22,046 nt of DNA from Spirogloea muscicola (Eukaryota; Streptophyta; Zygnematophyceae; Spirogloeales; Spirogloeaceae), in the NCBI GenBank assembly GCA_009602725.1, contig WELB01000046.1, positions 480,618 through 502,663 on the forward strand. The letters are read 5' to 3'. Shown piece by piece: positions 528 to 22,005 of the stretch (position 1 is the stretch's first letter; every line of letters begins with the position of its first letter). The notes beneath the pieces were generated by a model. That model was not told the origin of the DNA. It did not search any database and saw only the letters and a list, made by a program, of their open reading frames with translations. The position numbers and the translations under genes are program-made.

Positions 528-559
528 GGCCAGCCCAGGAAAAACAATGAACAAAGTGG
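528..559 (-). repeat. Partial 3' hairpin module
   Basis: GGCCAGCCC followed by AACAATGAACAAAGT is the reverse complement of the ACTTTGTTCATT...GGGCTGGCC part of the LINE 3' module. It directly abuts the 5' break of the fragment at 1-526, so two truncated copies are fused here. Confidence 0.5.
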
Positions 560-892
560 CTCCCTTGCCTACGCCGTCCACACGCGAGCAGGCTGTGCTA
601 TGGCTGCTGCCTCTGGGTCTCGGCGGAGTGCCTACTTCCCTGCAGCGAGCTACTCTGACTTAATGTTGCTCACTCGTGAGAAAGTGCTCGCCTATAGAGA
701 AGAGGAGCTGGCAAAGCCAGCCCAAAGAAAGAATGGACAATCACTCGTGGGTACTGAGCTTCCCACTGCATCGTCTCGTATTTTGTAGTGTAGTCCTTTT
801 TCGGCACCTCTTTCTTTGGCTTTGGACACTGTCCATTCACTTTGGGCTGGCTTTGCCTGCCCCTCTTCTCTATGGGCGAGCACTTTCTTCTT
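560..892 (+). mobile_element. LINE-like 3' end, second subfamily, with nested insertion
   Basis: The plus strand carries the last codons of a second LINE subfamily (VHTRAGCAMAAASGSRRSA, then YFPAASYSDLMLLTR) and its 3' UTR. Related copies are at 14220-14665 and 20880-21135. A 62-nt insertion at 679-740 splits the terminal RGY codons. Without it the frame reads SDLMLLTRGY-stop (stop 755-757). The 3' UTR (TTTTGTAGTGTAGTCC, then GGCACCTCTTTCTTTGGC) ends in a hairpin module whose 3' arm is imperfect, followed by GGGCGAGCACTTTCTTC. The fragment is non-functional. Confidence 0.7.
679..740 (-). repeat. 62-nt nested hairpin-module insertion with 9-bp TSD
   Basis: The insert is the reverse complement of the family 3' end: TTGTCCATTC, a GCTGGC-TTT-GCCAGC hairpin (707-721), then a GCGAGCACTTTCT end. 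TCACTCGTG flanks it on both sides (670-678 and 741-749), a 9-bp target-site duplication. The host copy is a C-terminal LINE fragment whose terminal motif is restored when the insert and one duplicate are removed. Confidence 0.85.
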
Positions 893-1123
893 TTCTTTTA
901 AGTGGACGGCAAATGCCAAGGACCGCTGCAGGGAGATGGCGAGCCGCATTTGTACACCTAAGCAAGCGAACCGGCAGCACCGAAGCTGGGCTGCTCTGCT
1001 CGCTCTGCTGCCCATTGGTGGCGGGACAAAGAAGAATGCGGCTGCTGCCTCCGGATTCTGCAAAGGCGACGATTTTCGCCGTCTAGTCATTCTGATCTGC
1101 ACTTGCTGACTAGAGGTTATTGA
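893..1123 (+). mobile_element. Degenerate LINE-like C-terminal remnant
   Basis: A weak remnant. DRCREMASRICTPKQANR-like codons resemble the LQRSMARALHLRAGR stretch of better copies, GCGGCTGCTGCCTCCGG matches the AAASG codons, and the fragment ends SDLHLLTRGY-stop at 1091-1123. The frame between these islands is broken. Confidence 0.45.
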
Positions 1124-1441
1124 TCGCCCACTTGACAAAAATTATCAAGATTCATTTTGTGCTTTTTTGCGCCTTCCATGCCTTCTAGTGAGACCTTGTA
1201 CATCCGTTTGGTGGCCTTCGGAAACAAAAATGGCGCGCCTTGAGAGAAGAGGGGCTAGCAAAGCCAGCCCAGAAAAGGATGGACAATGTCCGCAGGCCTC
1301 AAAGGCCACAAGCGCTGTTTGGAAGCACTTTTTCTTTGGACCAGGACCAGGACCACCAGGATCCCCCCTCGTCTTGACGATTCAGGCACAGATCGCTCAT
1401 GCTGGGGCACAGACTCTGCCTTCACTTAGAGATCAGCCACC
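1124..1441. other. Intergenic repeat mosaic
   Basis: No gene is supported here. Apart from the module at 1238-1295, the stretch holds a small (GGACCA)-type tandem near 1340-1360. Short open frames in it have no recognisable content. Confidence 0.5.
1238..1295 (-). repeat. 3' hairpin module (GCC-loop type)
   Basis: AGAGAAGAGGGGCTAGCAAA followed by GCCAGCCC and GGATGGACAA is the reverse complement of the TTGTCCATTC...GGGCTGGCTTTGC module. One stem base is altered (GCTAGC). Confidence 0.7.
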
Positions 1442-1521
1442 GAGTCATACAGACAGCCCAGCCTCAGCCCTCACTCAACCACACAGTCACACAGACAGCA
1501 CAGGCTCCCGCCCTCACTCAG
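1442..1521. repeat. Imperfect 42-bp tandem duplication
   Basis: Two units begin at about 1442 and 1484, each reading GAGTCAYACAGACAGC-like then CCCTCACTCA. They differ at several positions. The repeat lies in non-coding sequence and no function is suggested. Confidence 0.6.
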
Positions 1522-1721
1522 AGAGTGGCAGCCATAGCTAGGGCGCATTGGAACAGCAGCGAAGTCGTCAGTTCCAGGAAAATATGTAAGCCCGACACAC
1601 CAGGCCAGCCCTTTCTACAGGGGCGCCAGTCTTCCGTTGGAGGGGGGCTGAGGTTTAAATCCACGAAAGCTTCAGCGCTTTCCGGCCCCTTCCGTTCTTA
1701 TCCATATTTGCGGTCATTGTT

Positions 1722-1830
1722 CAGTCCTCTGGGCTGGCCTCTCACAGCCATTGCCTTAAATTGAAAGAGCTGTTTGTTGGTGTAAGGCTGGCTTATCACA
1801 GCCCTCGCCCCTTGCAGATACTATTTAAAT
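1722..1830 (+). repeat. Two hairpin modules (CACAGCC type)
   Basis: GGGCTGGCCTCTCACAGCC followed by ATTGCC lies near 1732-1757. A second, GGCTGGCTTATCACAGCCC followed by TCGCCCC, lies near 1786-1815. The stem is GGGCTG/CAGCCC rather than CTGGC/GCCAG, so these belong to a different subtype of the same short repeat. Confidence 0.65.
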
Positions 1831-2175
1831 CTCTTCTTTCAAAGGGAGCCCTCCAATGGCCCACTAGGCTAGTCAGATGGTGATCAGCCCAAACTGCTGG
1901 TTCACCGCACTTTCTCCAACACCACACCCCCTCCCCTCTTCCCCTCCCCACTTTCCTCTCAATCAAGACTTATACAACCCATCAGTTAGCCCTAACTTGC
2001 TTAGAAGGACCGCCAGCTTGCAGCTAGTTGCTCTGAAGAGCCCCAAGCCACGTCATGTATGCCGCTGTCATTGTTGCAGTAAGCACATCTGAAGGCCCCA
2101 GTGTCTGAGTACAATCACCCACTATGACTTGGTATTTGTCAATGATAGCTAACGCATATTCGAAGAGAAGACGCT
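1831..2175. other. Intergenic, nothing recognised
   Basis: A C-rich pyrimidine stretch (about 1920-1970) and mixed sequence. No coding frame with convincing composition, no RNA gene and no repeat module was seen. Confidence 0.5.
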
Positions 2176-2222
2176 TCCAGTAGAGGGCGGTGGCTGTGAG
2201 AGGCCAGCCCAGAAAAATGAAT
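2176..2222 (-). repeat. Hairpin module (CACAGCC type)
   Basis: CCAGTAGAGGGCGGTGGCTG followed by TGAGAGGCCAGCCCAG is the reverse complement of the GGGCTGGCCTCTCACAGCC-type module. It ends in the CCCTCTACTGG tail also seen at 11769-11825. Confidence 0.7.
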
Positions 2223-2458
2223 GAATGGAATATATGACTCTACATGTGACGGAAGTTACAGTCGTGTACCGGCAGAAGAGCATCAGTTTCTAAAGTGCAA
2301 GTTCAGAGCATATGCAGCACCACATACCGATGGCCCCTAGTGCCCAGAGAAGAAATAAGCATCGCGAGACATGCTTTCAGCTAGCCTGCACTCTCAATTA
2401 GCTGCACCACAGAAGACAATGCAGGCACAAAAAGTAACATTTTACCTGATGAGGCCCT

Positions 2459-4503
2459 TCACGTTCCTTCAAGATGTGTCCTGGTAGTGTGCCCAAGATC
2501 ACGAGAACTATGGTGATCTACCTCTCCAACTCTTTTGCCAACTATCACATCCTTCAGCCCTTCCATAATTACATGGGAAACTCTCCGGCTAGACTCGGAT
2601 GAAGGAGCTACAGGTCTAATAGCAGATTGTAGCATTTGTGCTTTCTCCATAGAACCTGTGCTTGCTTCACTATACCCGGAGGAAAAGCTGTGCGGTCCTA
2701 CTTTATTGTCAGAGGTCACAGGAGGAGCTTGAGGACGAGTTGGAGATGGAAGTGGAGGAGAGGCTGCCTTCTGCTCTCTCCTCCTCTGCTCAAGAGCCTC
2801 CATTGCTTCTTCAAACGACTTCTGAACAAACAACCAGGAGCTTGAGCTCAGAACATGGCAAATGACAACTGTGTTTGAATGTACTCCCCACAAACGGACT
2901 TGGACAACGGTCGACTCTGCTATGCTCACTTGCAGTGACACCATTAACTGCTGCATGCAGGATTGCTGCGAGGCCTTTTATGAACAGTGCATCACTGCAA
3001 CTTGCTTACTCCAGAATTCCTCGTGTTCCACAGGACGTCGGCCAGAGGTTCTGAAAAGACGAGCGCTGCCATTGCAACCCTGCAAGTATTGAGCAACACA
3101 GCAGAGTCTTCAACTCATCCAGGTGAGGCATAATATAAGTTGCGGTCCTTCTCACAAGCAGAATGTTTATGAAAGGGACCCCAGTGACCGGTGTGAGTGG
3201 CTGAGATGAGAAGGAGAACTTTCATGACGAACATGTAGAGATGTATGATGAGATATCATCGTACAATTCCTAAGATATCAGTTAGTGAAAGCAGATGAGG
3301 TGTCCCTGTCATTCCTGGCAAGTAAGCAGATCAAGGGCGAGTATATCCTGAAATTACTACATTGCAGCTCAGGTTCGGGGCTTAAGGTCCAGCATGCGGA
3401 GGCTTAGAAGCGGCGTCCTACCCAGCAATGACGAGGTGGAAATAGGCATCTCCTCGAGTCATGCCGCGAAGCGGGGCCGCCCACCATGCAAATCGCCCGC
3501 CATGGCCACCGCTGTTGCCACCACCAGCGGTGGAGCTGGTCCCAGCGCCTGCGCTGTAGCTTGACCGACCAGGCCGGTAGCTGGGCCGGCTGTCAGGGCC
3601 ACGGTTGAGGCCCGCCCTACCCTCGCGGTTGTAAATTGCTCTCTGCAGAATGTCACAGAGCGCACACAGACACAGGACAATCAGCGCAGCCTCAACTAGA
3701 GCTGCTTGGCCAACAGAGAACAGAGTCGAGCAATCCTATCGCCCAGGGATCGCCACAAAGGCATGGAGATGATGTCGAGAACTGGTGAGAGCACCGCCCA
3801 GCAGGACAGAAAAGATAGCGGCGGTTTTGTCCTTGAGAGCAATGGAGACAGGCCCTGCAGGGTTTGAGTATTTAGAGGGCAAGAGTGCTTTTGCTCTGTG
3901 CCGCTAACTAGATAAGTGACAAGACATCAACCACGTTGGGCGTTTAACAAGACAGCTGTAGCCTTGCCACTGATCTGGCATCACATGCAGAACCCAAGTA
4001 AATGGTCACAACTGAACAACCTACGAGACCTCAGACGAGTAAGCGCCCACAGTCAAACATATAAGATTGCCTTTAAGTCATGGATGAAAGAGGCCTATTG
4101 GGATTGAGTGACTGAACTGATTCATGCAACCTAAGCTTCTGGAGGAGAGGCGAAGGTTCAATCCAACGAGTGAGTTTAATAGGAGCTGAGTCAAAGAGTT
4201 GACATCTGGAATGTAGACATTAGGCTTAAGGCTTCGAAGTCCAAGGATGGCAATTGTGGTTTGAGGGTTGGACTTTGATGGGTGAAAAGTCGTCGGAAGT
4301 GAGGGGGCGACCTTGTGGGGCTTGCTGAGGATCTCGTAGGCCTCGGCGAGCTCGCGGAAGCGGGCGGCGGCGGCGGCGCGGCGGGCCTCGGGCGCGCCGG
4401 CGTGGCGGTCGGGGTGCCACGCCAGCGCCAGCCGTCGGTACGCCGCCTTGATCTCGCCGACCGGCGCGTCTCGCGCCACGCCCAGCACCCGGTATAGGTC
4501 CAT
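2459..4503 (-). CDS. ATJ72: J-domain protein, dnaJ 72-like, four exons
   Basis: Exons on the minus strand: 4503-4312, 3642-3422, 3079-3010 and 2821-2459, 846 bp or 281 residues. Every junction is GT-AG and keeps frame (phases 0, 2, 0). Residues 1-64 plus RAIYNREG form a J domain; the HPD motif (30-32) that stimulates Hsp70 ATPase is intact. A Gly/Ser/Arg linker follows. Residues about 130-146 (AYFHLVIAG + VAMAALVF) form one hydrophobic, probably membrane-spanning segment, assembled across the exon 2/3 junction. LWNTRNSG + [11 protein letters not shown], split by intron 3, matches the C-terminal signature I recall for Arabidopsis dnaJ 72 ([19 protein letters not shown]). The Pro/Ser-rich tail beyond residue 175 looks longer than in that family. 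The ATG at 4503 is chosen because the J domain begins there and only telomere-like repeat lies upstream. Likely role: membrane-anchored Hsp70 co-chaperone; location not determinable. The symbol is by inferred orthology. Confidence 0.9.
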
Positions 4504-4515
4504 TCCTGCCACCAC

Positions 4516-4577
4516 TAAACCCCAAACTCTAAACCCTAACCCCCTAAACTTAACCCTAAACCCTAAAGCCTAAACGC
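4516..4577. repeat. Interstitial telomere-like repeat (CCCTAAA) block
   Basis: About eight degenerate copies of the plant telomere unit CCCTAAA, several perfect (CTAAACCCTAA, CCCTAAACCCTAAA), interspersed with variants such as CCCCAAACTCTAAA. The block starts 12 bases upstream of the J-protein ATG, so it probably lies in its 5' UTR or core promoter. AAACCCTAA is also the plant telo-box promoter motif. Confidence 0.85.
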
Positions 4578-5364
4578 CATAACCTGCTCTCCCCTGATTC
4601 TGCTAAGTGGAGGCCGAGGCCGTGGCGTCCTGTCGGAGGCGGCAGCTGCAGCTTGGCAGAGGCCCTTCGCCGGGCTCGGGCATGGCCCCGCGCAATTGGA
4701 GACGTGGGTCAGCTGAAGCGAAGCTCAGGCAGGAGGGTTGAGCGTACTTGCGGATCGAGTGGCAGCTTCAGCGCCACTGCGGAGGAGGTTGCGGTGGTGG
4801 TTGCCGCGGCAGCTTGGGTCTCTCTCGCGGGGAGCTCTGGAACTCGCCGGGAGTAAAGCGAGGCCGCCCTTGGCTGGCGTCCTTGTGCTCCTGGAGGCCT
4901 GGCACCAAGGCAACGGGCGGAACAGATGGGTCTGAGTGGGAGGACGGAGTGTGGCTTATGGGATGGTGGTTGATGACAATCTCTTTCAAGGGGGCGAGGG
5001 CTGTGGAAAGCAAGCCAGAAAGAATGGACTATGAATTACCAGGGCTTTACGGCCGTAAGGCGCTAAATTTACACAGCAATGCTAGTGACTACAGCGTATG
5101 GAGCTCAGAAGCCCCTGTTCAGAAAGCCTCAAAGTCGGAGTAACTTGCAGCTGGAAATGAGTTTACTTCAGTAAGCGGAACAGTGCTCAGGCCAACCAAA
5201 AGTGGATAAGACGTGGCTACAAACTGACAGCGTGCTAGTAACCCGCCAGCACAAAAGCAACGTGGCCACACAGTCTGTCGGATCTGCGGCTCCTCACTCA
5301 GTAGTTTCGGATCTGCGGCTCCTCACTCGTAACTACTGAGTGATCTATCCCACTGCATCTTTAG
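4578..5364. other. Upstream region of the J-protein gene, no gene supported
   Basis: GC-rich to about 4900, then mixed composition. Short frames on both strands have low-complexity compositions and no start or splice support. A direct repeat of GGATCTGCGGCTCCTCACTC lies at about 5280-5329. This stretch is probably promoter plus intergenic DNA. Confidence 0.5.
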
Positions 5365-6040
5365 AAGAAAGAGCTCGCCCATTGAGGATAGGGGCTGGAA
5401 CAGCCAGCCCAAAAAAGAATGGACAAAGTACGAGAAGGGAGCCAGGGGAAGCGCTAAGAAACAAGCACAAGAAGAAACAAAGCAGCTACGAATGACTCAG
5501 TAATTCCTGCTGAGCAGCCGCAGATCAGAGATGCTAGGGTCCTGGAAGTGGGTCCCCTGGACAGAGCCAGAGGCAGCAGCTAGGGCTCTTCCGGCACAAA
5601 GGTGCAGCGCACGGGCCATGGACCTCTGCAGCGAGACGGCCAAGCGCATGCGATACACTTGCGCCAGCGACCCGGCTGCAGGAAAGTCTACCGGCTCACC
5701 ATGGAGCGACGGGCGATTGCGTGGCGGGCGAGCTGGTTAAGTAGCTCAAGCCACCGAGCGCCCAGTGCCCCATGGATGTCAATTGCCAACGGGAAGAACT
5801 CGTCTTCCGGCGGATGGTCGGCGTACTTGATCTCTTTTGCCCGAGCTGCGCAGGCGACCGCATGCCCAGCCTTGGTGGCAGACTGGGCTGGGTGGGAGCG
5901 GTCAAATGCGTCGGTAGTCACCACGTCCAGAAGCAGACGTGGCCCGCCGGCCTGTGGGGTGGCCACCAGGTCGATGCGACGAGCGTGGAGACCGTCGGCC
6001 CTTTCCTGGAGCGGCATGACGCCGGAGTGCTCCTCTGTAG
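5365..6040 (-). mobile_element. LINE-like 3' end, 5'-truncated, frameshifted
   Basis: Minus-strand translation gives SGVMPLQERADGLHARRIDL, TTDAFDRSHPAQSATKAG, KEIKYADHPPEDEFFPLAID and WLELLNQLARHAIARR. A one-base deletion (CGCTCC for CGCTTCC, near 5704) then shifts the frame. In the next frame VDFPAAGSLAQVYRMRLAVS, LQRSMARALHLCAGRALAAA and ISDLRLLSRNY-stop follow. The 3' UTR (TTTGTTTCTTCTTG, GCGCTTCCCCTGG) ends in a GGGCTGG-CTGTT-CCAGCCC hairpin and GGGCGAGCTCTTTCTTCT. This is a near-twin, inverted, of 20158-20824. Only the protein tail and UTR survive. Confidence 0.8.
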
Positions 6041-6361
6041 GCCCCTGTGTAAAGAAAGCGGCTGCTGATATGAAAGAATCGGCTGTGAAATGCCAGCCAG
6101 ATGCATACAAGTGTTCATGACGGAGCCAAAGGCTAGGCAGACAGGGCGCCCTCAATACCCCCGTGTCAGCAGTAGGAAGTCAGATGAGCTGAGGGGAGGA
6201 AGAGCAACCCCGCAGCGCAAGCCAGAGGCTGCTGCAAGGGCGCGACCAGCGCGGCGGTGCAAAGCAAGCGCTTGGGAGCGCTGCAAGGACATAGACAATC
6301 GCATACGGTAGCAGGACACAAGACCCAAAAGACCTGTGTAGGCGCTTGTCGGCCCCTCCGA

Positions 6362-6425
6362 ACCCTAGTCAATTCTTTTTGGGCTGGCTTTCACAGCCCT
6401 TGCCCCCGTTTGGAGTGCCACTTCT
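6362..6425 (+). repeat. 3' hairpin module (CACAGCCC type)
   Basis: AATTCTTTTTGGGCTGG followed by CTTTCACAGCCCTTGCCCCC and a TTTGGAGTGCC tail. It is the subtype also seen at 13655-13712 and 21420-21475. Confidence 0.7.
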
Positions 6426-7472
6426 TTCACAGACCGCGGCTTGTGCACGCAGGCCACCTACACGTAGGTGGCTGTCGACTCGACTGACGCTTAGTCTTGT
6501 GTTAAGTTCCAGTTACATTGTCTGGCCCCTCGCCGTCAGGGCGTGCCCAGCCACAAAGACGTAGATGGCTTTAGGGGTTGAAAGGTTTTGGGGTTTAGTG
6601 GCGAAATGATGCCTCTTCGTCTCATCCTGGCATGCTTGCCCAGCTCGTCTCTTCGCAGACCCCTCCGGCGCCGCCGCTCGTAAGCCGCGCTTGCCGCTCA
6701 GCCCATTGGCGGCAGGCCATAGCCCCATCTCCTGCGGCCCATTCTGGACGGCGCCCGCTTGCTGCTGCCAGTGGGCGCTCGTGCCGGTTGCTGCCGCTGC
6801 CCAAGGTTGAAGCCTGACCTGAACCCCTAACTCTTCATCCTGACTCTGGACTTTATATCCTGAAGCAGTTATGTTTAGGACTGTTCTCCATGACTCTGAC
6901 CTGAGACTTATTCCAGTTCTGAGTCGACTGACTGTCAATCTTGCGCTCAAAGTTCTCTTGCACTACTGTTGACTGCATAACGATTATATGACATCTGAAT
7001 TAGGGACCCTAACCTTTATGTCCTCACTTCCTCCTTCGGATACTCACGTAAGGTGCTTCCACTAATTTCTTCAGACACACTCACATGTACGTTGCAGAGC
7101 ATTCAGGCCACAATCTCAAATGCACGTGGATCGTACTCGATCTGGCTGCTCGCAGCGGCTGCTGGTCCAGGGGAGGTTGCTGCTTCTCCAGAGGCCGCCG
7201 CAACGGCTCTACCTCGCTCCACATTTGCGTGGCTGGCCGGCTGAGGCAGACCTTCTGGCCTGCATGCACACCCTGAAAGCCTAGCAGAGGCGCTGTGGCA
7301 AGCTGCCACGGTGGTCGCCATGCAGAGGTCGCAGTGGCCACCATCCGCTGCCTCCAGTGGTCATGCAACGCGCCCATTTTGGCACCAGGCACCGCCTGCC
7401 TGGCACCATGATAGCAAATGTGGCTCCATGAGCCCTGCGCCGTTGTGGACTGCCCTCCCCTCCTGCCGCCGC

Positions 7473-7474
<2 letters not shown>

Positions 7475-7522
<48 letters not shown>
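7475..7522 (+). repeat. (CTG)16 trinucleotide tract
   Basis: Sixteen uninterrupted CTG units flanked by GCCGCCGCCG and CCGCTGCCG. Depending on frame it would encode Leu, Cys or Ala on the plus strand or Gln on the minus strand. A polypyrimidine tract and two CAG acceptors (near 7568 and 7598) lie just downstream, so the tract is most simply in a 5' UTR or intron of the plus-strand gene. Confidence 0.85.
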
Positions 7523-7524
<2 letters not shown>

Positions 7525-7598
7525 GCTGCCGAAGCGGCGCAGCCGAGCTCGCTCCTTGCTCTGTCCTCAGCTCCCCCCTACCTCCGCCTTCCTTCTCA

Positions 7599-8332
7599 GC
7601 ACGGCCCGACGCCGCCCACCGGATCTCCACGACCTGGTGGCCAGCGCCAGGCCCAACTGCCGTGCCACCACCAGCAATACCACAGCAGGGGCTTCAGAGT
7701 GCAGCAGTTGAGAATGTCAACGCACCTGAGAGCGGAGGCGTTGAGGATCAATTCTTGCAGGAGGTAGGGAGGGAGGAGGAGGATGCCATCAACGGGGAGG
7801 GAAGCGAGGAGGACGTTGAGCTTGAGCTCACAGAAGAGTGGGTCCGCTTCTTCGCTGAGGCTGATGCCAGGCGGCGAGCGAGTGCGGCACCCAAACCCAT
7901 CGCTCACCTTCCTCTTCTCTCAAACTCAGCCACTGACTTGTCCTGATGCATGGCTACCTCCTCTCTCCAGCCTCCTCTATCTTCGTCACTCATCTTTTCC
8001 CACATTCCAAACTTCCCATCTTCTTGTTCGCCCTGACTCCTCTCACTCTCTTTCCAGCACAGCTCTCTCCTCCTGTCAATCATTTCCTCTGCTTCCTCGT
8101 CTCTCTTTATCCCATCTCCACCAGATGTCAATTCTTTCCTGATGCGCGCAGCATCATCGCTGCGGTAGAGTGCAGCCTGTCTGAGCATACTGCAGGCTTT
8201 GCTGCCACAGGGAAAGCGGAGCGGAGGAGGGAGGCCCGAGCTGGCCGGGCCTCTCGACGGCGGCCCGAGTGCCAGCCCGTGGGCACGCTCCAGTCAGAGC
8301 CAGAGGCGCTGCCACCGATGGCGGAGTCCTGA
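7599..8332 (+). CDS. Unrecognised gene, 3' part, two exons
   Basis: The 3' end of a gene whose start was not found. The penultimate exon runs from an uncertain acceptor near 7598 (CTTCCTTCTCAG) to 7881. It encodes VPPPAIPQQGLQSAAVEN, then an acidic stretch (EEEDAINGEGSEEDVELELT) and EEWVRFFAEADARRRA. The donor A|GTGCGG (phase 1) joins acceptor CCACAG|GG at 8211, giving KAERRREARAGRASRRRPEC and a short tail ending at the TGA at 8330-8332. The join keeps one continuous acidic-then-basic helical-looking segment; unspliced, the frame runs on into unrelated sequence. I do not recognise the family. The gene converges on paralogue B (9359-11257). The weak points are the unknown 5' end and the lack of homologue evidence. 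Confidence 0.5.
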
Positions 8333-12396: not shown

Positions 12397-12440
12397 AGCG
12401 AGGGCTCTGCCGGCACGCAGGTGCAGCGCGCGGGCCATAG

Positions 12441-12467: not shown

Positions 12468-12600
12468 GGGCCATAGACCTCTGCAGCGCAACGGCCAAGC
12501 GCGTCCGGTACACCTGCGCTAACGACCCGGCTTCAGGAAAGTCCACCGGCTCCCCATGGAAGCGGCGGACGATGGCGTTGCGGGCGAGCTGGTCGGCTAG

Positions 12601-13134: not shown

Positions 13135-13185
13135 GCTCCCCTTCGCTATAGATTCTTGAAAAGCTGTGCAATCTGGCGCATATCG

Positions 13186-13235
13186 GCCCTTTGGACCTTG
13201 TCCATTCCGTCTGGGCTGACCATTCACAGCCCCCG
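13186..13235 (+). repeat. 3' hairpin module (CACAGCCC type)
   Basis: CCTTGTCCATTCCGTCTGGG followed by CTGACCATTCACAGCCCCCG. It directly precedes the truncated LINE copy at 13236, another fusion of two fragments. Confidence 0.6.
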
Positions 13236-13640: not shown

Positions 13641-13654
13641 TTTCCTGTTGAACT

Positions 13655-13712
13655 GGCATTCATGGGCTTGGCTTTCACAGCCCTCGCCCCCTTTGGAACA
13701 GCCCCTCTCTTT
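13655..13712 (+). repeat. 3' hairpin module (CACAGCCC type)
   Basis: GGGCTTGGCTTTCACAGCCC followed by TCGCCCCCTTTGGAAC. The CCCTTTGGA tail is shared with the 6362 copy. Confidence 0.65.
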
Positions 13713-13844
13713 TCTTCGCCCCCTTGGAAATTTCTACCTTGGACGAGCTGCTTCCTCTGTTGGGCTGGCCTTTCCCTCCCATAAGCCCCTAACGAAGAAT
13801 ACTATCATCTTTAGTCCCCTGCTTTCTGTGCCATTCGGCTCCTC

Positions 13845-14665
13845 TTGACCTCGTCCATTCCTTTTGGGCTGGCTTCTCCCAGCCACCAGTCAATTCGGCC
13901 GCGCTTTTGTTCATCTCCCACGTTCCTACGATCCCCCACCCGCCAATCCCACCAGATCGGCGTCGTTTGCAGGGCACGCGGTCGGCCAGGCGGCCCGGGG
14001 CAAGGAGCGAAAATATGCCGATCACCCGGTTGGTGATGAATTCGCGGCCCTGAGCGATAGATGTTTCGGCAGCCGCTGGCTAGATCTCCTCCAGCGGCTT
14101 GCCCGTCAGGCCACTGACCGGCGGCCGGGTCTGCTAGGGGCGATGCCCGGCTTCAACGCCGTCGGTTCGCTCGCCCAAGTCTTCCGTATACGCCTGGCGG
14201 TATTGTTTTAACCGGTCCCTGGCCCACGTCGTCCACACGCGCGCAGGCCGTGTTATGGCCGCCGCCTCTGGGTCTCGGCGGAGTGCCTCTTTCCGTGCAG
14301 TGAGCTACTCAGACCTGATCGTGCTCACCCGCGGGTACTGAGCTTCCCTCTGCATCGTCTAGTGTTTTGACTAGAGGTTACTGAGCGTCCTCTGGCTGAT
14401 GTCTTCGTCCTAGTCCAAAGGCATGGACTGTAGTGTAGTTCTTTTATCGGCACCTCTTTCTTTGGCTTGGGATATTGTCCATTCTTTCTGGGCTGGCTTT
14501 GCCAGCCACTCTTCTCTATGGGCGAGCACATTCTTTGCAGTGTTTTGTAGTGTAGTCCTTTTGCGGCACTTTCCCCTCTTTTTTTGTTTTGTTGGCTTTG
14601 GACATTGTCCATTCTTTTTGGGCTGGCTTTGCCAGCCCCTCTTCCCTATGGGCGAGCTCTCTTTC
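13845..14665 (+). mobile_element. LINE-like 3' end, second subfamily, with duplicated 3' UTR
   Basis: Begins with a module (TCGTCCATTCC...GGGCTGGCTTCTCCCAGCC, about 13850-13888). Degenerate coding follows: GHAVGQAARGKERKYADHPV, GDEFAALSDRCFGSRWLDLL, QRLARQATDRR and VGSLAQVFRIRLAV, then after a frameshift VHTRAGRVMAAASGSRRSAS and YSDLIVLTRGY-stop (14339-14341). The 3' UTR carries the second-subfamily end twice, about 14428-14540 and 14543-14665. Each has TGTAGTGTAGT, TTGTCCATTCTTT, a GGGCTGGC-TTT-GCCAGCC hairpin and GGGCGAGC. This is the most diverged version of the KYADHP...DEF region in the window. Confidence 0.75.
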
Positions 14666-14743
14666 ATGGCCTCCCCATCTCTTAATACACACGCATTTCT
14701 TTCCTGTCCTCGTGACCTCTCACGAGGAGAGGTCTACTCCGAG

Positions 14744-14961
14744 ACCTCCAGCTTTGTCCTGCTTCGCACATCCCTTTGGGCTGGCCTCTCACAGCCATTG
14801 CCGGTTGAATGGAGAGCTGTTTCCTCTCACGAGGGGAGAGCCATTTTCTCTCACGAGGTGAGAGTCTCCTCTCCTTGTGAGAGCAGCTCTTGCAACTTAC
14901 GGCCATGGCTGTCAGAGGCCAGCCCAAAGGAATGCACAAAGCAGGACAAAGCAGGAGGAAG
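14744..14961. repeat. Fold-back (long inverted repeat) element
   Basis: Arms 14775-14803 and 14900-14928 pair at 27 of 29 positions (TTTGGGCTGGCCTCT...GCCG). Pairing continues outward through CTTTGTCCTGCTT (left) and its partner near 14940-14955, and inward through GAGAGCTG / CAGCTC and CTCTCACGAGG-like blocks. The apex holds a perfect CTCTCAC-GAG-GTGAGAG hairpin (14848-14864). The arms contain the CACAGCC-type module in head-to-head orientation, so it may have arisen by opposed insertion of two modules. Confidence 0.75.
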
Positions 14962-15501
14962 CCGAGACCATGGCGGTCTCCTCTTTCACAAATGAGGAGA
15001 CAAGCCGCGACGAGAACCTGACTCAGAAGAATCCACTGTGTGGTAGATATGCTGCGGTGCCGCCGCCAGCCTGCAGCGTTGTGACCGCCATGGCCACTTC
15101 TCCAGAGCCCGCCGCCGCCGCCGCCGCCCCCCCACTATGGTATTTCTGGCCCCTCCGCCGCCGCCGCCGTGGCGTCGCGGCGCCGCCGGCAGGCGGACCC
15201 TCCGGGCGGCCGCTGCGAGCCAGGCGCCGCCGGCGAGAGCCCTGCAGGCTTTCTTTTGTATTGAAGATGTCAGAACGAACAAAGAGCTCATCATGCATGG
15301 CAGCCAGTAGCTGCAGAAACGTCAACAAGGGCCTATCACGCAAAAAGCTGACTGGGCTATCACGGAACTAGCTGGCTGAATCCACCAGACAATATTGAAT
15401 CCCGAGAAAAGAGCAATCTAATATGCAGCAGAACCAGTCAAATCACACTTTGATTTCCAACCACCTTTTACAACCAAATAGCTGTATACAAGAGCAAGAT
15501 G
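14962..15501. other. GC-rich then AT-rich intergenic region
   Basis: GCC/CCG-rich tracts at about 15045-15240 give long frames on both strands but of Ala/Arg/Gly low complexity. A minus-strand frame ending VTTLQAGGGTAAYLPHSGFF near 15023 could be an exon but has no partner I can connect. From 15370 the sequence turns AT-rich, consistent with the 3' UTR of the minus-strand frame above it. Confidence 0.4.
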
Positions 15502-15911
15502 TTACAATATTGTCCAGAAAATCTGTGGGCTCCAAGAGTACCACTCCTTGGTTGTAACTACCAGCTCTGCTTCGATGCCATCCTTTTTGAATTTGTCGCC
15601 CTCCAAAATCCTCCCAACCAAGTCCTTGTTGCTGCTCAAAGACCCACCCTTTGCATGCTGTAGCTGGTGGATGTTACAAGGCAGCTGCATTCCGGGTAGT
15701 ACTTCAGGTTGTGCTCTGACTAACTTCATCGCAATTTGAGAAAAAATGAAAGAGAAATGATACCAAGACCATCAGTCAACACGCAATCTCTGCGCACCTC
15801 TTGAGGTGTGCCCTGTTGCATCTTAGCTGCCACAATGATGCTGCTCTTGTCATCCGATATTCTAGTTCTTGTACATGCTCTATCGGACGTATCGCTGTTG
15901 CAGGCAGCCAC
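15502..15911 (-). CDS. Tentative 3' end of an unrecognised gene
   Basis: Minus strand. The exon 15723-15502 encodes LVRAQPEVLPGMQLPCNIHQ, then LQHAKGGSLSSNKDLVGRIL, EGDKFKKDGIEAELVVTTKE and a Trp-rich end before TAA at 15502-15504. Its composition is protein-like, unlike the opposite strand. A preceding exon could be about 15911-15798 (SDDKSSIIVAAKMQQGTPQE), with donor GAG|GTGCGC and a 74-bp pyrimidine-rich intron to AAG|TTA. No domain is recognised and the 5' part is not found. It lies 0.76 kb downstream of paralogue A in the same orientation. It could instead be an unrelated chance frame. Confidence 0.35.
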
Positions 15912-16673
15912 TGTGATGTGCTAGCTTGGAAGATGTTATCACACCGTGAGATCGAGCAGGCCACTGGACAGCACGCTGACACGTAGCAGCGCTGCATGTG
16001 CACGTCATCTCTCAGCAAGTTTTGGCCAGCATGATGAAGTTTACTGTGCGAGTGGCTTCTGTCGTACAGCCTTCTGGAGGTCTCAGGCAGGATATACAGC
16101 TACTCTGATGCGCATAAATTTTGCTTATGTACGATCTTGGCAGTCTAAGAGAGACAGTGAGCTTGAGGTTCGACTTCCAGATCTACAAACCACTAAGCTG
16201 ATCAAGCCGCATCGATCAATGCTGCTGGCAGATACGCAGAGTCAAAATCCGCGCTTTCAAGAGCGATGAATTGTTGGAGCCAATGCGACTGCCATTGCAT
16301 GGTGGAGGTTGTAAAATGGATACTCTTGCCATAGATGTATGTGCAAAGGTCTGATATTTTGATTATTCGACTCAATGTTCGACATTGAGTCCTGCGGGAG
16401 CTGCAAGTAGCTGTCTAAAGTCTGTGAAAGAGAGGTAAGGTCTATAATGTCCTGAAGGCTCGGCTAGCTAATGCAGCATTTATTTGGGGAGCGAGGATGA
16501 AGAGGCCACTCAGGCGTATGAGCGGCTCGCAGGGGTGTGTTAAAAGGGAGGATGGTGAGCAGAGTATCACGTATCACTTATTACACCAAGTAGTGTCACT
16601 TATTACAGCCAAAGATAGGCTGGCTCTGGACTCAGCTATCGTCACCATGGGCAACACGTCCAGATGGGGAGCT
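15912..16673. other. Downstream of paralogue A, no gene supported
   Basis: Expected to hold the 3' UTR of paralogue A and possibly upstream exons of the tentative gene at 15502-15911. Frames on either strand are short and unconvincing. No retroelement modules are visible. Confidence 0.4.
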
Positions 16674-18313
16674 CTAGCGAGTGGTGCACTTGAGCCCGCC
16701 GGCAACCTTGTCATTGGAGCACAGTGTCGAACCGAAGGTCTCCTCGTCCTCCTCCACGTCGTCCATGACGGCCAGCTTGTGCGCCATTGCACCAACCTGG
16801 AGGACGTCGTAGGGAGTCGCCTCGAAGATGCTCACTGGACAGTCAGCGGCAAAGAGGGAGGAGGACGTGTATGATGGGACGTCGCCAAGGATGTATGAGG
16901 CGACAGTGAGGCCCTCCTTGACGTTAGGCGGCGACCACAGGCGCTGGTATGTCTGGCCGAGCACGCCCTCCGCAGAGCCCGAGAGCTGCGAGAACTCCAA
17001 GGCCATGTCGAGGTGCGCGAAGCAGCTCTCCTCTGTCCACTGGTCCCTGCCGATGGGCCGGGCCTCCACGTTGAGTGCCAGCAGGTTCTCAATCTCAATG
17101 CGTGCCACATTGGGCTTGCTAGAGCGCACTACTCGGACCTTGGCCGCATCAGAGACATAAATGGCCTCATCTGCAGTATTGCTGACAGGAAGCAGCACCT
17201 GGACGGCAGAGAAGGCAGAAAGTGAGTAAGTAAAAAATTGACCAATAGTTGCTTTCCACATTCAGGCGGCGAGCAAAGACAATCATTCTTTACTATCAAG
17301 ATCCTAAAGATCAGAGGTAATCAGGAGATTGCGACAAGGCTTACCTCGCCATTGAGGGAGAAGAGGAGGTGGTCGGCCTTTGCGTCCCAGGTCGCCTGCT
17401 GCTGGGTGCCGATGTAGAGCTTGTTAGTGCCGAAAAGGATGGCAATGGCCTGCACCCAGGTGAGGTCGTGGCCCTCCTCCACAGACTTGCCGATGAAGTG
17501 GGCATTGATGTGTAGGTTGCGGTCGGAGACGACGCAGAAGTCCCCATCCTTGCGGCCGTGGAACCAGAAGGGCACGCCGTCGCCGCCGACCAGGCGGGGG
17601 TCGCCGCACATCGAGCCGCCATTAGTGCAGAGCGGGCAGTCGGCGGGCTTCACGGCCTTCTTCAAGGACAGGTCCGCCATTTTGTACGTCGCCCCGAACT
17701 GGAGAAGGACGCCCTTGACGGGGTCCCGGACGTCGAGCGGGCCAGCCTTGAGAAGCACGTTGCAGGTCTTGTCGTTGGTGCCCACGAGCGAGAGGCTGCA
17801 GTACTTCATGTTCTTGTAGTTCTGCTCAGTCTGCACCTTCACGAAGGTGTACGTGCCGTCAGCGCCGGTCCGGGCGTACTGGGTGTACGGGCCTCTGCCA
17901 TTGTTGACGTCGCAGGTCAGCGCGACTTGGGCGCCCTTAGCGGGACCGTCGGTGGCCCCCTTCTTGCCATCACCGCAAGAGTCGCAGTACACCTGCATGA
18001 GCAACGGATTGAACGCGTCAACGACCTTGCCGAGAACAACGTGTGGCTTCTCTGCAATGTTATAACGAGAACATTACACCCGGAGGACGTGGCCACCGCT
18101 CAGGCCTGCACCATGCAGCCGCTGCACTAACAAACACTGCTTTCTTCATGAGCGCAGGACTGGCTTGGGATACTCGATAGCAAGGCAAGCACAGCAAACG
18201 CATTTGAGCAGGTGCGGTGTGCTCACCGAGCCGGTGACCGTGCAGTAGTGGGCGGCGGCGGGCGCCACGAGGCACGCGACGACCAGGAGGGCGAGGAGCG
18301 CCTGGCTGGCCAT
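16674..18313 (-). CDS. Secreted Ole e 1-like / Root_cap protein, paralogue A
   Basis: Exons on the minus strand: 18313-18227, 17992-17345 and 17198-16674; 1260 bp, 419 residues; both introns GT-AG, phase 0. Residues 1-21 (MASQALLALLVVACLVAPAA, A) are a signal peptide, cut before HYC. Residues 22 to about 148 form an Ole e 1-like domain with six cysteines (HYC, VYCDSC, GAQVALTC, MKYC, DKTC). From residue 158, CGDPRLVGGDGVPFWFHG, FCVVSDRNLHINAHFIG and DLTWVQAIAILFG define a Root_cap domain, running to FAHLDMALEFSQLSGSAEGV and LGQTYQ (323-329). The tail ends CSNDKVAGGLKC. The ATG context is GCCATGG. The spacing of CGDPR and GGDG resembles a von Willebrand D-type opening, an inference. Predicted extracellular or wall protein, molecular activity unknown. 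GC-rich third positions. Compared with B, the last two exons are one. Confidence 0.93.
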
Positions 18314-18457
18314 GGCGACGGGCTGGAGCAGCAGCAGCAGCGAGCGCGGCGCCGCAGCTGACTGGCGGCGGCGGCGGCTGGCAGATGTAGGTGGCGAAGG
18401 TGGGGGAGCTGGGAAGAAGGGCGAACTGGGTCCCCAGATGGCTGGCCCGATCGCCGA

Positions 18458-18465
18458 TCTTATAG
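18458..18465 (-). promoter_or_regulatory. TATA box of paralogue A
   Basis: CTATAAGA on the minus strand within GGGCTATAAGATC, 145 bases upstream of the ATG. This allows a 5' UTR of roughly 110 bases. Confidence 0.65.
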
Positions 18466-18574
18466 CCCGGGCCCTGAAGGCGAGGGAGGGGGAGAGAGAG
18501 GAATAGAGAGGGACGGAGGGGGGTGGGAGAGCTAGAGGGAGAGCGAGAACGAGGGAGAGAGAGAGAGACGGAGN

Positions 18575-18833
<259 letters not shown>

Positions 18834-19008
18834 GGAGGGAGCGAGGAGGGCGGGAGCTGCTTCCAGCGTGTGGGTGCGGCGGCGGCGGGAGATGGGCCCC
18901 GCCTCGGGCAGGAACTTGATGGCCGGGCTAATGCATTTCAATCACCGTGCCTCGACGGGCAGAGGCGGCGTCCCTCACGGCAGCCAGTCGGGTGCTGACA
19001 GAGCCCCC

Positions 19009-19038
19009 TAACCGCCGGTTATCCTTAACCGGCGGTTA
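19009..19038. repeat. 13-bp perfect inverted repeat
   Basis: TAACCGCCGGTTA and TAACCGGCGGTTA separated by TCCT. Each arm itself contains AACCG and CGGTTA, the core recognised by plant MYB proteins, and another TTAACCGG follows at 19046. It lies about 0.7 kb upstream of the paralogue A start. Confidence 0.75.
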
Positions 19039-19165
19039 CGGCCGCTTAACCGGGCCAGACCCATGCAGCTGTCGTGGCGTGAGCCGCCCCCGGGGGGTCG
19101 GCGCCAACTGGGGCGGCAATCACGGCGGGATTGGCGGGTCAACCCCCTGGTCGGCACGCGCAGAC

Positions 19166-19212
19166 TGCCACGTGGCAACTCCAAGCGACTTCCGTGCGGA
19201 GGCTTCCACGTG
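19166..19212. promoter_or_regulatory. G-box pair
   Basis: TGCCACGTGGCA (19166-19177) is a 12-bp perfect palindrome around the G-box CCACGTGG. A second CACGTG lies at 19207-19212. They are 0.86 kb upstream of paralogue A. These are bZIP/bHLH-type sites; abscisic-acid control would be an inference. Confidence 0.5.
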
Positions 19213-19784
19213 CGCCGCCCCCGGTCGCCGGCTTCCCCACTTCCGTCGGCGAATGCCTCCGCGGGCAGGGCCCAGCAGGTAGCGCTTACCGGGAGCCGAC
19301 TTTGATGGGGCGTCGAGGCGGAGCGTGCGTTCAGGGTAGCTTCTGTCACCGGCCAGGTGGCGGCAGCACCGGGTTTCCAGCCACGCCGGGGGGGGCCAGC
19401 AGAAAGACCCCCTGGGTGCCGCAGGCCAGCTGTCTGCCGGGACCACTGAGGTGCGGCCAGGTGGGGGCGGCGGCATCTGGGGCAGGTGCTAATTGACGGA
19501 AGACGACAAAAAGCCAGTGGTTCAGGGTCCTGGCTGTTGCAACGTGGCGGCCGAGCAGGTGGCGCGCAGGAGCCGGCGACGGACCCGGCTTTGTCGCCTT
19601 GCGGGGCCCCGGCGCGAGGCGGGTGGGCGCACTCGCGCAACGTGGCGGAGCCGTTTCGCACTCACCCGCCGCCATCTCCTCCAACGAGAGGGCCACCATT
19701 GGGAGAGCCACTTTCTCCGACGAGGCACGTCCCCTCATGTCCCTTGTCCACTTCGGTCGTCCAGTCTCTGGGTTGTCCACTTTG
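19213..19784. other. GC-rich intergenic region
   Basis: High-GC sequence with G runs and long frames on both strands that lack recognisable motifs or splice support. Possibly the distal promoter of paralogue A. Confidence 0.45.
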
Positions 19785-19840
19785 GTCATTCATTTTCTGG
19801 GCTGGCGAAGCACTGCCATCGCCCTCGACTGGGAAAGGTC
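19785..19840 (+). repeat. Hairpin module (GCCATCGCC type)
   Basis: CATTTTCTGGGCTGGCGAAG followed by CACTGCCATCGCCCTCGACT and GGGAAAGGTC. The stem is decayed but the CCATCGCCCTC tail matches 11769-11825 and 21955-22005. Confidence 0.55.
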
Positions 19841-19865
19841 TTTGGCTTCCTCTGGCCCCCTTCTC

Positions 19866-19925
19866 GTTCTTTGTTCATTCTTTTTTGGGCTGGCTTGTCC
19901 AGCCCCTATCCTCACTGGGAAAGGT
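19866..19925 (+). repeat. 3' hairpin module (CCAGCCC type)
   Basis: TTTGTTCATTCTTTTTTGGG followed by CTGG-CTTGT-CCAGCCCC, then TATCCTCACTGGGAAAGG. The GGGCGAGC box is replaced by GGGAAAGG. Confidence 0.7.
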
Positions 19926-20006
19926 CTTCCTTCTACTGGAGCACCACTTCTTCACTGGAAGAGTCGGTCTTCGCTCTTCTTTCTGGTCCACTCTTTCTGG
20001 TCCACG

Positions 20007-20152
20007 CTTAGCAGGGGTTACTGAGTGTCTCGTAGCAGCTTTGTTTCTGTTACTTAGCGCTTCCCCTGGCCCCCTTCTCGTACTCTGTTCATTCTTTTTC
20101 GGGCTGGTTGTTCCAGCCCCTATTCTCAATGGGCGAGCACTTTCTTCTTTCT
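20007..20152 (+). mobile_element. LINE-like 3' UTR with last codons
   Basis: LSRGY-stop codons (20007-20024) are followed by a first-subfamily 3' UTR (GCTTTGTTTCTG, GCGCTTCCCCTGG), a GGGCTGG-TTGTT-CCAGCCC hairpin and GGGCGAGCACTTTCTTCTTT. It ends just before the next copy. Confidence 0.7.
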
Positions 20153-20157
20153 GGGCT

Positions 20158-20824
20158 GGCTCATCCGGCGTCATGCCGCTCCTGGAAAGGGCCGACGGTC
20201 TCCACGCTCGTCGCGTCGACCTGGTGGCCACCCCACAGGCCGGCGGGCCAAGTCTGCTTCTGGACGTGGTGACTACCGACGCATTCCACCCAGCCCAGTC
20301 TGCCACCAAGGCTGGGTATGCGGTCGCCTGCGCCGCTCGGGCAAAAGAGATCAAGTACGCCGACCATCCGCCGGAAGACGAGTTCTTCCCGTTGGCAATT
20401 GACATCCATGGGGCACTGGGCGCTCGGTGGCTTGAGCTACTTAACCAGCTCGCCCGCCACGCAATCGCCCGTCGCTTCCATGGTGACCGGTAGACTTTCC
20501 TGCAGCCGGGTCGCTGGCGCAAGTGTATCGCATGCGCTTGGCCGTCTCGCTGCAGAGGTCCATGGCCCGTGCGCTGCACCTTCGTGCCGGAAGAGCCCTA
20601 GCTGCTGCCTCTGGCTCTGTCCAGGGGACCCACTTCCAGGACACTAGCACCTCTGATCTGCGGCTGCTCAGCAGGAATTACTGAGTCATTAGTAGCTGCT
20701 TTGTTTCTTCTTGTGCTTGTTTTTCTTAGCGCTTCCCCTGGCTCCCTTCTCGTACTTTGTCCATTCTTTTTTGGGCTGGCTGTTCCAGCCCCTATCCTCA
20801 ATGGGCGAGCTCTTTCTTCTGGCT
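20158..20824 (+). mobile_element. LINE-like 3' end, frameshifted, twin of 5365-6040
   Basis: SGVMPLLERADGLHARRVDL, VATPQAGGPSLLLDVVTTDA, FHPAQSATKAG, KEIKYADHPPEDEFFPLAID and WLELLNQLARHAIARRFHGD lead into a stop caused by a one-base loss (GGTGACCGG for GGTGAGCCGG, near 20486). The next frame carries VDFPAAGSLAQVYRMRLAVS, LQRSMARALHLRAGRALAAA and TSDLRLLSRNY-stop (to about 20684). The 3' UTR ends in GGGCTGG-CTGTT-CCAGCCC and GGGCGAGCTCTTTCTTCT. Relative to the inverted twin it lacks 9 bases in the TTDAF region. Confidence 0.8.
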
Positions 20825-21135
20825 CAGCCCTTCTCCGGCTCGCCCACGTCTTTCGGATGCGCCTGGCGGTATCGTTCCAGCGTTCTCTTCCCCACGCCGT
20901 CCACACGCGAGCAGGACGTGCTCTGGCCGCCGCCTCCGGGTCTCGGCTGAGTGCCTCCTTCCCCGCAGCGAGCTACTCTGACCTGATGTTGCTCACTCGC
21001 GGGTACTGAGCTTCCCTAGTGTGTTGTCTTGTTTGGTTGTGTAGTCCTTTTCCAGCACCTCTTTCTTCGGCTGCAGATATTGTCCATTGTTTTTGGGCTG
21101 GCCTTGCCAGCTCTTCTTCTCTATTCTCTTTCATT
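20825..21135 (+). mobile_element. LINE-like 3' end, second subfamily
   Basis: SGSPTSFGCAWRYRSS-like or, in the adjacent frame, FRMRLAVSFQRSLPHAVHTR, AGRALAAASGSRLSA and SFPAASYSDLMLLTRGY-stop (21007-21009). The 3' UTR has TTGTCCATTG and GGGCTGGCC-TT-GCCAGC and ends TTCTTCTCTATTCTC without the GGGCGAGC box. It starts directly after the tail of the preceding copy. Confidence 0.75.
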
Positions 21136-21419
21136 CTCTTTCATCAACGTGCAGGGCGCGCTCTAAGTCAGGCCTCCGGCTTTCGTGGCGGCGCTCCAGC
21201 TCCCCAAGTTAGCTTGTCAGATTTGTTTGTGCTCACCCGTGGGTACTAATGTCGTCTTAGGTACCTTAGATTAGGTCTCCGTATTATGTAGCATTGTTTA
21301 GTCTGCACTCGACTCTGCCTGAACAATGTATTGGCTTGAATTGGCCTCCCTTTCAATTCATGCGCCCCGCGCGCCTTCTCTCTCTATATGGGCGCGCACT
21401 TCTCTTTTCTAAACCTTTG
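21136..21419 (+). mobile_element. Short LINE-like C-terminal remnant
   Basis: Encodes AGRALSQASGFRGGAPA, then QVSLSDLFVLTRGY-stop (21247-21249): the AGRALAAASGS...SDLxLLTRGY pattern with diverged sequence. From 21250 to 21419 nothing else is recognised. Confidence 0.55.
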
Positions 21420-21475
21420 TCAATTCTTGTCGGGCTGGCTTTTCACAGCCCCAGCCCCCTTGGATGAGCTTCCGG
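21420..21475 (+). repeat. 3' hairpin module (CACAGCCC type)
   Basis: GTCAATTCTTGTCGGGCTGG followed by CTTTTCACAGCCCCAGCCCC and TTGGATGAGC. Confidence 0.65.
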
Positions 21476-21615
21476 TTTACGGCCCTTGCCCCCTTGTTGG
21501 CTCTTTGTACCTTGTCCATTCTTTTGGCTTGGCCTTTCCCAGCCTGCTGCCTCTGGCTTAGCCCAGGGACCCGCTTCCAGGAACCCAGACTCTCTGACCT
21601 GAGGCTGCTTAGCAG

Positions 21616-21644
21616 TCTCTCTGACCTGAGGCGAGCCCTTTCTT
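21616..21644 (+). repeat. 29-nt nested insertion with 8-bp TSD
   Basis: TCTCTCTGACCTGA, copied from the adjacent host sequence, joined to GGCGAGCCCTTTCTT, the extreme 3' end of the element. CTTAGCAG precedes it (21608-21615). The matching copy begins at 21645 and is itself split by the next insertion. Confidence 0.7.
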
Positions 21645-21651
21645 CTTAGCA

Positions 21652-21718
21652 TTTTGAATTGAAAGGGCTCGCCCATTGAGGATAGGGGCTGGACAAGCCA
21701 GCCCAAAAAAGAATGAAG
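21652..21718 (-). repeat. 67-nt nested insertion with 10-bp TSD
   Basis: Minus strand: CTTCATTCTTTTTT, GGGCTGG-CTTGT-CCAGCCC, then GGGCGAGCCCTTTC and an A-rich end (AATTCAAAA). CTTCTTAGCA flanks it exactly (21642-21651 and 21719-21728). Confidence 0.8.
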
Positions 21719-21954
21719 CTTCTTAGCAGGGGTTACTGAGTGCTTCGTAGCTGCTTAGTTCTCTTTGTGCCTGTTTTTCTTAGTGCCTCCCCTGGCCCCT
21801 TCTCGTCCTTTGTTTGCTTCTTTGGGATGGCTTTTTCCAGCCCCTATCCTCAATGGGCGAGCCCTTCTTCTTCTTTCCCAGCCCCTACCCTCGGTTGTGA
21901 GCTCCTACCCTCGGTGGACGAGCGATTTCTCCTTTGGAAGAGCCTGGCCCCTTC

Positions 21955-22005
21955 GAAATTTGTTCGTTCTTTTCTGGGCTGGCCAATCACAGCCATCGCC
22001 CTCCC
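21955..22005 (+). repeat. Hairpin module (GCCATCGCC type)
   Basis: GAAATTTGTTCGTTC, then CTGGGCTGGCCAATCACAGC and CATCGCCCTCCCTGCTAGAG. It resembles the decayed 3' UTR at 13013-13065. The window ends shortly after. Confidence 0.65.

Follow-up and report, generated by a model that had tools for sequence, protein, structure and literature searches.

A short hairpin near the 3' end of co-resident R2-like LINEs in Spirogloea muscicola, probably the recognition handle of their reverse transcriptase

We analysed a stretch of 22,046 nt from the alga Spirogloea muscicola (contig WELB01000046.1 of assembly GCA_009602725.1, positions 480,618 to 502,663 of the forward strand; in the following, the window), which carries many copies of a short, hairpin-bearing module. 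This module forms the 3' terminus of several related, co-resident families of long interspersed nuclear elements (LINEs) with an R2-like reverse transcriptase (RT). We consider it probable that it acts as a 3'-terminal cis-element of these LINEs, i.e., that the hairpin is the handle by which the RT recognizes its RNA.

Comparing the window with the 3' ends of the families (E≤1e-4) yields 32 non-overlapping modules on both strands between 679 and 22003, which is far above chance and bears out the claim of a first-pass annotation that more than 25 copies exist in both orientations. Two of the 32 (12445-12471, 14665-14698) are tails starting within the 3' arm of the hairpin, while weaker candidates at 534-554, 4990-5030, 1786, 13659 and 13755 are outside this list. 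A two-part scan (i.e., TTGTCCATTC with at most 3 mismatches plus GGGCTGG with at most 1) provides 34 raw matches in the window, whereas 50 dinucleotide shuffles gave 5.3 on average and never more than 12. Visual inspection identified 7 of these matches as the palindromic stem read from the opposite strand and a further 2 (9937, 17041) as non-modules. The strict pattern TTGGGCTGGN{3,12}CAGCC is found 11 times in the window (0.01 expected) and 14,409 times in the genome (153.1 Mb; 1 match of the reversed control), i.e., at ~499 vs. 94 matches per Mb. For the stricter GTCCATTCTTTTTGGGCTGGCN{1,10}CAGCC, 826 genome matches are observed (reversed control 0). Rfam provides no match at gathering scores. 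Searches of the open-access literature, which covered neither subscription papers nor Repbase, showed no description of the module or of a comparable LINE set from a green alga.

Codons upstream of many module copies end in SDLxLL(S/T)RGY or a near variant directly followed by the stop codon. Within the window, codon matches are confined to the last ~182 residues. For A, B, D1, D2, F2, Y1 and Y2, frames were read that stay open between the RT domain and the stop codon. For A (L113), D1 (L117), D2 (L118), F2 (L114), Y1 (L115) and Y2 (L116), modules continue these frames in adjoining stretches (L073, L093, L096, L082, L088, L090). Among the B-type loci, L069 has a frame of 949 aa that is open and contains RVT_1, and the module behind it is its own, of the B type. 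That is, the expected LINEs with an open RT-to-stop frame and a subsequent module exist for A, B, D, F and Y. Only the frame of the other B-type locus, L072, was read to its N-terminal end: a single frame of 1,338 aa leads from a zinc-finger-like N-terminus (zf-C2H2_4 with 14 bits, below the cut-off of 27) via RVT_1 (615-843, 3e-16) to the stop. The module 40 nt past the stop of this B-type frame is A-type, such that its own B-type tail is missing or displaced. The transition (L072:6848-6980), where the untranslated region (UTR) of the complete frame passes into the A-type module, is either a nested insertion or an inter-family chimera.

Pfam reports RVT_1 in all proteins scanned (A, B, D1, F2 and Y1), and the RT proteins carry YADD or FADD. 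A profile of seven proteins matches R2 with 3e-12 and the next kind with 3.6e-6 when compared to solved structures only; by this profile, no solved protein is closer to the RT than those of R2. Among the clades R2, R4, NeSL, Utopia and CRE, the sequences support an assignment as R2-like only. The C-terminal arrangement of CxC-x11/12-HxxxC and RxxD-x14-D..K is invariant in 7/7 proteins. This C-terminal part finds no Pfam or PDB match, and a structure model of the window's own fragments with the motif is poor (pLDDT 56.5); judged by the motif, the elements probably encode a restriction-like endonuclease (RLE). For an apurinic/apyrimidinic endonuclease (APE), no Exo_endo_phos match at E≤0.1 is present in the L072 frame, the one complete frame.

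Over ~795 aa, the A, B and D proteins are mutually 67-87% identical, while F shows 52-55% identity to A/B/D and Y 44-47% to all others. In alignment A3 (L072, L113-L118), SD..L.RGY at the stop codon is invariant in 7/7 proteins down to 44% likeness; an RNA-level constraint on this motif is possible. Genome searches list longer frames, e.g., of 1,386-1,433 aa (five A copies) and of exactly 1,267 aa (nine Y copies), and eight C-terminal queries give 2,715-20,116 first-look candidates, which are not copy counts. Beside LINE matches, these searches also list open frames of thousands of residues which, given the N runs upstream in L119 and L130, are probably assembly gaps. The RT parts of C and X are mostly assembly gaps, and no RT part was taken for E, G and R. 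Frames from a PF00078 search (~160-aa match) look Gypsy-like by eye; they were kept in the sample but not used for the families.

All element ends follow the same order: the SDLxLL(S/T)RGY-type C-terminus, the stop, a UTR of ~95-145 nt with the hairpin, and a pyrimidine-rich, CTTTCTT-like end without poly(A). The 3' foot of the hairpin is located 22-36 nt upstream of the element end, i.e., 24-29 nt in 13 exemplars, 27 nt in B and, for X, 36 nt by a GGC-type stem or 22 nt by a stronger one. Here, exemplar C3 ends ~3 nt short (its spacing reads 24, the true value is ~27), and the B hairpin was set by hand in later counts, since the automatic choice took another stem. In 14/15 exemplars, the strongest perfect UTR hairpin has its 3' foot 22-29 nt upstream of the element end, compared to 211/2,997 shuffles; this range was chosen after the data were seen. 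For the exception Y1, the hairpin at this position is second best by 0.2 kcal/mol.

The hairpin has 8 bp and a 3-nt loop in A, 7 bp and 5 nt in B, 6 bp and 8 nt in C, 6 bp and 6 nt in D, 5 bp and 8 nt in both E and G, and 5 bp plus one U.G pair in F. Apart from two single changes, GGCUG/CAGCC is common to the hairpins of A-G. Four types with altered stem composition, as previously proposed, are therefore not observed: GGGCTGGC/GCCAGCCC, GGGCTGG/CCAGCCC, GGGCTG/CAGCCC and GGCTG/CAGCC are one stem at 8, 7, 6 and 5 bp. The deeper lineages X (UGAAUUGG/UCAAUUCA) and Y (GGCC/GGCC in most copies) have different stems in almost the same position; these are no more stable than shuffled sequence. The supposedly shared TTGTCCATTC-like box beside the hairpin is present in some families but was not seen in this position for F, X or Y; Y1 shows TTGTCCAATG 17 nt upstream of its hairpin.

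Folding whole UTRs (seven cases) results in z-scores from +0.95 (C) to -2.27 (A). An outer helix of the TTGTCCATTC box with the ATGGGC tail (-10 to -11.5 kcal/mol in A and B) was not adopted, as own pairs are no better than swapped ones (0.18-0.31 of the permutations were as good) and no gain over shuffles is found on alignment A2. One A-type copy (L005, minus strand, 594-823) has its loop enlarged to GGCTGGCAAAGCTTTGCCAGCC, which gives a longer perfect palindrome.

The stem is strongly constrained. Comparisons between families show differences in 54/4,640 cases for the core (1.2%), 1,354/3,430 for the loop (39.5%) and 13,906/25,941 for the other columns (53.6%). Within families, i.e., for 178 copies (including a few loci that overlap in the genome) vs. 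their own exemplar, differences amount to 1.7% in the core, 5.5% in the loop and 4.2% elsewhere. This is also reflected in alignment A2 (33 copies, Y and X excluded), where core columns show 1.8-2.0 bits and most flanking columns less than 1.1. Since the arms remain nearly unchanged while the rest changes, the hairpin is probably the enzyme's handle on its RNA. A functionless stem, kept by recent common descent or inter-family gene conversion, would explain why the core is identical in sequence and not just in pairing. It is already poorly compatible with the 54% and 39% differences of other and loop columns in the same alignment and with A, B, D and F proteins that differ by 13-48%, and we regard it as very improbable.

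Covariation, in contrast to what had been anticipated, is not observed. No double-sided change occurs in the 5-bp core, the RNAalifold covariation term of the 33 copies is -0.06, and the 8-bp stem does not exceed shuffles (77.7% vs. 77.3% paired; covariation score reached by 136/500). The two observed core changes each retain a G.U pair. A core that hardly varies cannot show covariation; pairing is left without this support but is not contradicted. Reading the Y stem as compensatory GGCUG/CAGCC was not adopted: MAFFT pairs the Y 5' arm with the loop-side sequence of E, which leaves the homology of the Y arms unsure. For one E copy (L110), both stem registers are possible. From the suggested stem structure that is read by the RT as in stringent-type LINEs, the location at the LINE 3' end, the presence in several families and the strong stem constraint are thus retained, while covariation is not.

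To characterize copies without codons, we used a sample of 306,118 unique bases around LINE and RT matches, which is no genome-wide set. L001 and L039 were dropped from all counts (overlap with the window), and truncated modules lacking one of their junctions from the repeat tests. After overlap removal, 129/304 modules extend to the stop codon and 175 begin inside the UTR, 23 of the latter inside or beyond the hairpin. Start points scatter over a range between 85 nt upstream of the hairpin and 24 nt beyond its beginning. Direct repeats of at least 7 nt flank 17/108 truncated modules (mean 5.8 and maximum 10 in 200 permutations) and repeats of at least 8 nt 11/108 (mean 2.7, maximum 7), and target-site duplications are clear in single cases, e.g., at 679-740. 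The codon-free copies are extreme 5' truncations, some of only ~30 nt and some with target-site duplications. The hallmarks of target-primed reverse transcription, i.e., 5' truncation, a fixed 3' end and a duplication excess over the copies as a set, are all present.

It had been suggested that codon-free types are short interspersed nuclear elements (SINEs) which borrow the tail. Such partnerships are known from Chlamydomonas and grasses, namely SINEX with RandI or L1 tails and ZmSINE2/3 with LINE1-1_ZM (as given in parts of PMC3747384), and 175/304 modules do lack a stop codon. Their starts are spread, however, and no SINE-like head was found within the sample. Clustering 108 heads (at least 30 unmasked nt; based on 308 modules, with L065/L069, L064/L070 and eight 38-51-nt overlaps counted twice) gives only five small clusters (4,4,2,2,2), of which 3/5 show a LINE stop-codon context in at least one member, and one pair matches the X-type UTR. 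The pair L065 and L069 has no visible LINE context in the stretch inspected, and these loci overlap in the genome. No tRNA gene was found in the window (bacterial search settings). Judged by this sample around LINE and RT matches, we consider the SINE explanation extremely improbable.

Elements do land in old tails: for 7/228 element ends of all families, a GGGCGAG-type tail of another element follows within 14 nt. Some X and Y elements (L092, L120, L125, L129) end within pyrimidine tracts of A- or B-type tails, as would be expected if old tails served as targets. This could indicate that the palindrome acts as DNA, e.g., as target or cleavage site for later insertions. At these four loci, however, the landings by eye lie downstream of the hairpin, within the pyrimidine tract, and pyrimidines make up 76% of the first 5 nt after element ends compared to 52% of the next 5, such that a role as DNA is hardly to be expected. 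This bias may partly represent element sequence and not the target.

Several observations weigh against the hairpin as a handle of the RT. Compared to shuffled UTRs, it is clear only in A and B (0-5/300 shuffles as good), weak in C and D (18-27/300) and not above shuffles in E, F, X and Y (37-124/300). The 15 exemplars represent about four deep lineages and are not 15 independent cases, and the 33 exemplars were picked by a recognizable hairpin, which favours apparent constraint. No covariation is seen within A-G, F and R, and 91/108 truncated modules have no direct repeat of at least 7 nt. If only Y1 is considered, RTs of group II introns and of the retron type rank slightly above R2. Furthermore, the constraint also fits sequence-only recognition or a role in 3'-end formation.

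The latter is the main rival. Here, the hairpin would be a signal for RNA 3'-end formation, i.e., a cellular factor binds it, the RNA is cut ~25 nt downstream, and the RT reads the resulting poly(A)-free end instead of the hairpin. The near-fixed spacing between hairpin and end as well as the missing poly(A) agree with this. On the other hand, loops and flanks diverge freely between families and the stem differs in Y and X, which fits a factor coevolving with the elements better than one host factor; we therefore judge the rival to be unlikely.

We infer that the RT binds the hairpin and that the loop provides specificity. Most likely, the enzyme would grip the hairpin with the stem as general and the loop as family-specific part, and target-primed reverse transcription would start at the pyrimidine end ~25 nt 3' of the hairpin. 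Copying would often stop very early and leave 5'-truncated, often nested copies down to the last 25-60 nt. Early stops would thereby fill the genome with truncated copies, such that the module is repeated with and without codons.

Known systems show parts of this anatomy. As in R2 and other RLE LINEs, which provide the best solved relatives, the RT is combined with C-terminal CCHC-like and RLE-like motifs. In contrast to these, the elements are dispersed: we find no confinement to the 28S rDNA site, given 14,409 tails genome-wide and copies inside other LINEs, where the rDNA itself was not searched. Also different are the one short hairpin near the end, the several side-by-side families and the near-invariant stem.

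ZfL2-1 and ZfL2-2, stringent LINEs of the L2 clade, are APE-type elements. Their recognition element is a 3' stem-loop, as is also present in the elements studied here, where it clearly beats shuffles only in A and B. Compensatory stem changes, as expected of stringent-type LINEs, are not found here, where the core hardly varies. The LINEs here are R2-like and do not belong to the L2 clade, in which stringent recognition was studied (PMC4176376). A proposal in the same source, that ZfL2 proteins recognize the stem generally and the loop specifically, matches the fixed stem and variable loops. For R2Bm, an excerpt of PMC10499050 describes the need for a small structured 3' UTR core, reducible to a 43-nt tag that is read by NTE-1. 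Given both, the anatomy observed here fits a template-recognition element. In the monocot L1 lineage ME1 with ZmSINE2/3, the last 45 nt are far more conserved and contain a putative hairpin (section of PMC3747384). There, the stem varies with compensation while the loop is conserved (ibid.), whereas the elements studied here combine a fixed stem with a variable loop. ME1 further differs by its L1 clade and its SINE partners.

Dualen/RandI and Zepp are LINEs of the green lineage, too. Dualen carries both APE and RLE, in contrast to the L072 frame with its missing APE match. Zepp copies cluster as well (PMC8226300), and Zepp is listed as an L1 with poly(A) (PMC3747384).

A wider reading is tentative and, in our view, rather doubtful: a docking code, by which RLE LINE families with proteins 44-54% alike would keep one hairpin slot at a distance of ~25 nt to an end that lacks poly(A). 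The stem would dock and the loop choose, deep lineages would have re-invented the stem (GGCUG, GGCC, UGAAUUG) at that place, and either mutual mobilisation of tails or discrimination by loops would be possible.

R2-type enzymes are being developed as gene-insertion tools, and their 3' UTR signal is hard to see, with known UTRs being divergent. One genome with many related families and a very short kept stem is a natural panel for the needs in stem, loop and spacing. In addition, a class of short dispersed repeats is explained as LINE ends reduced to ~30-60 nt.

The features of the window are as follows, where 3' ends and modules are based on matches to the 3'-end exemplars of the families unless stated.

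679-740, minus: A-type module, ~62-nt insertion, 9-nt direct repeat at its flanks
749-890, plus: A-type 3' end, stop codon to element end (93.7% to family exemplar)
1247-1291, minus: A-type module without codons
1717-1750, plus: G-type module (nearest exemplar D2)
2174-2212, minus: E-type module
5364-5505, minus: B-type 3' end, stop codon to element end (the copy itself is the B2 exemplar)
5500-6032, minus: B-type LINE C-terminal codons, RLE-motif region, more than one frame
6053-6160, minus: F-type 3' end (99%)
6155-6364, minus: F-type C-terminal codons, ending SDFLLLTRGY*
6343-6425, plus: C-type module
11770-11885, minus: E-type 3' end
12065-12204, minus: B-type 3' end
12292-12397, minus: B-type module without codons
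12445-12471, minus: tail-only A-type insertion of ~30 nt from the hairpin's 3' foot, within B-type codons; the 10-nt direct repeat on either side may partly belong to the element
12810-12956, plus: E-type C-terminal codons, ending SDLRLLTGGE*
12954-13064, plus: E-type 3' end
13183-13234, plus: R-type module (nearest exemplar D1)
13235-13456, plus: B-type C-terminal codons
13451-13618, plus: B-type 3' end
13811-13908, plus: D-type 3' end
13924-14338, plus: A-type C-terminal codons, two frames
14429-14535, plus: A-type 3' end
14540-14660, plus: A-type 3' end
14665-14698, plus: tail-only Y-type insertion, 34 nt
14769-14797, plus: G-type module
14906-14939, minus: G-type module
19797-19832, plus: E-type module
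19840-19932, plus: B-type module without codons
20016-20147, plus: B-type 3' end
20164-20681, plus: B-type C-terminal codons, RLE-motif region, two frames
20676-20819, plus: B-type 3' end
20839-21006, plus: A-type C-terminal codons, ending SDLMLLTRGY*
21001-21124, plus: A-type 3' end
21163-21246, plus: X-type C-terminal codons, ending SDLFVLTRGY*
21241-21382, plus: X-type 3' end with a different stem (TGAATTGG/TCAATTCA in exemplar L127)
21412-21469, plus: C-type module
21509-21544, plus: D-type module
21661-21717, minus: B-type insertion, ~59 nt, 10-nt direct repeat at its flanks
21733-21870, plus: B-type 3' end
21945-22003, plus: E-type module (E4; nearest exemplar by BLAST is C3)

Beside the LINE remains, the minus strand of the window holds two apparently intron-split host genes resembling tandem paralogues (9362-11258 and 16677-18310). 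Pfam reports Pollen_Ole_e_1 in both and Root_cap in the second. A frame with a DnaJ domain (4081-4569, minus strand) overlaps plant-type CCCTAAA-like repeats at 4516-4570. These domains and repeats point to the green lineage. Finally, ~250 bp of (GA)n at 18574-18826, with one N at the start, are likely an assembly-sensitive microsatellite.

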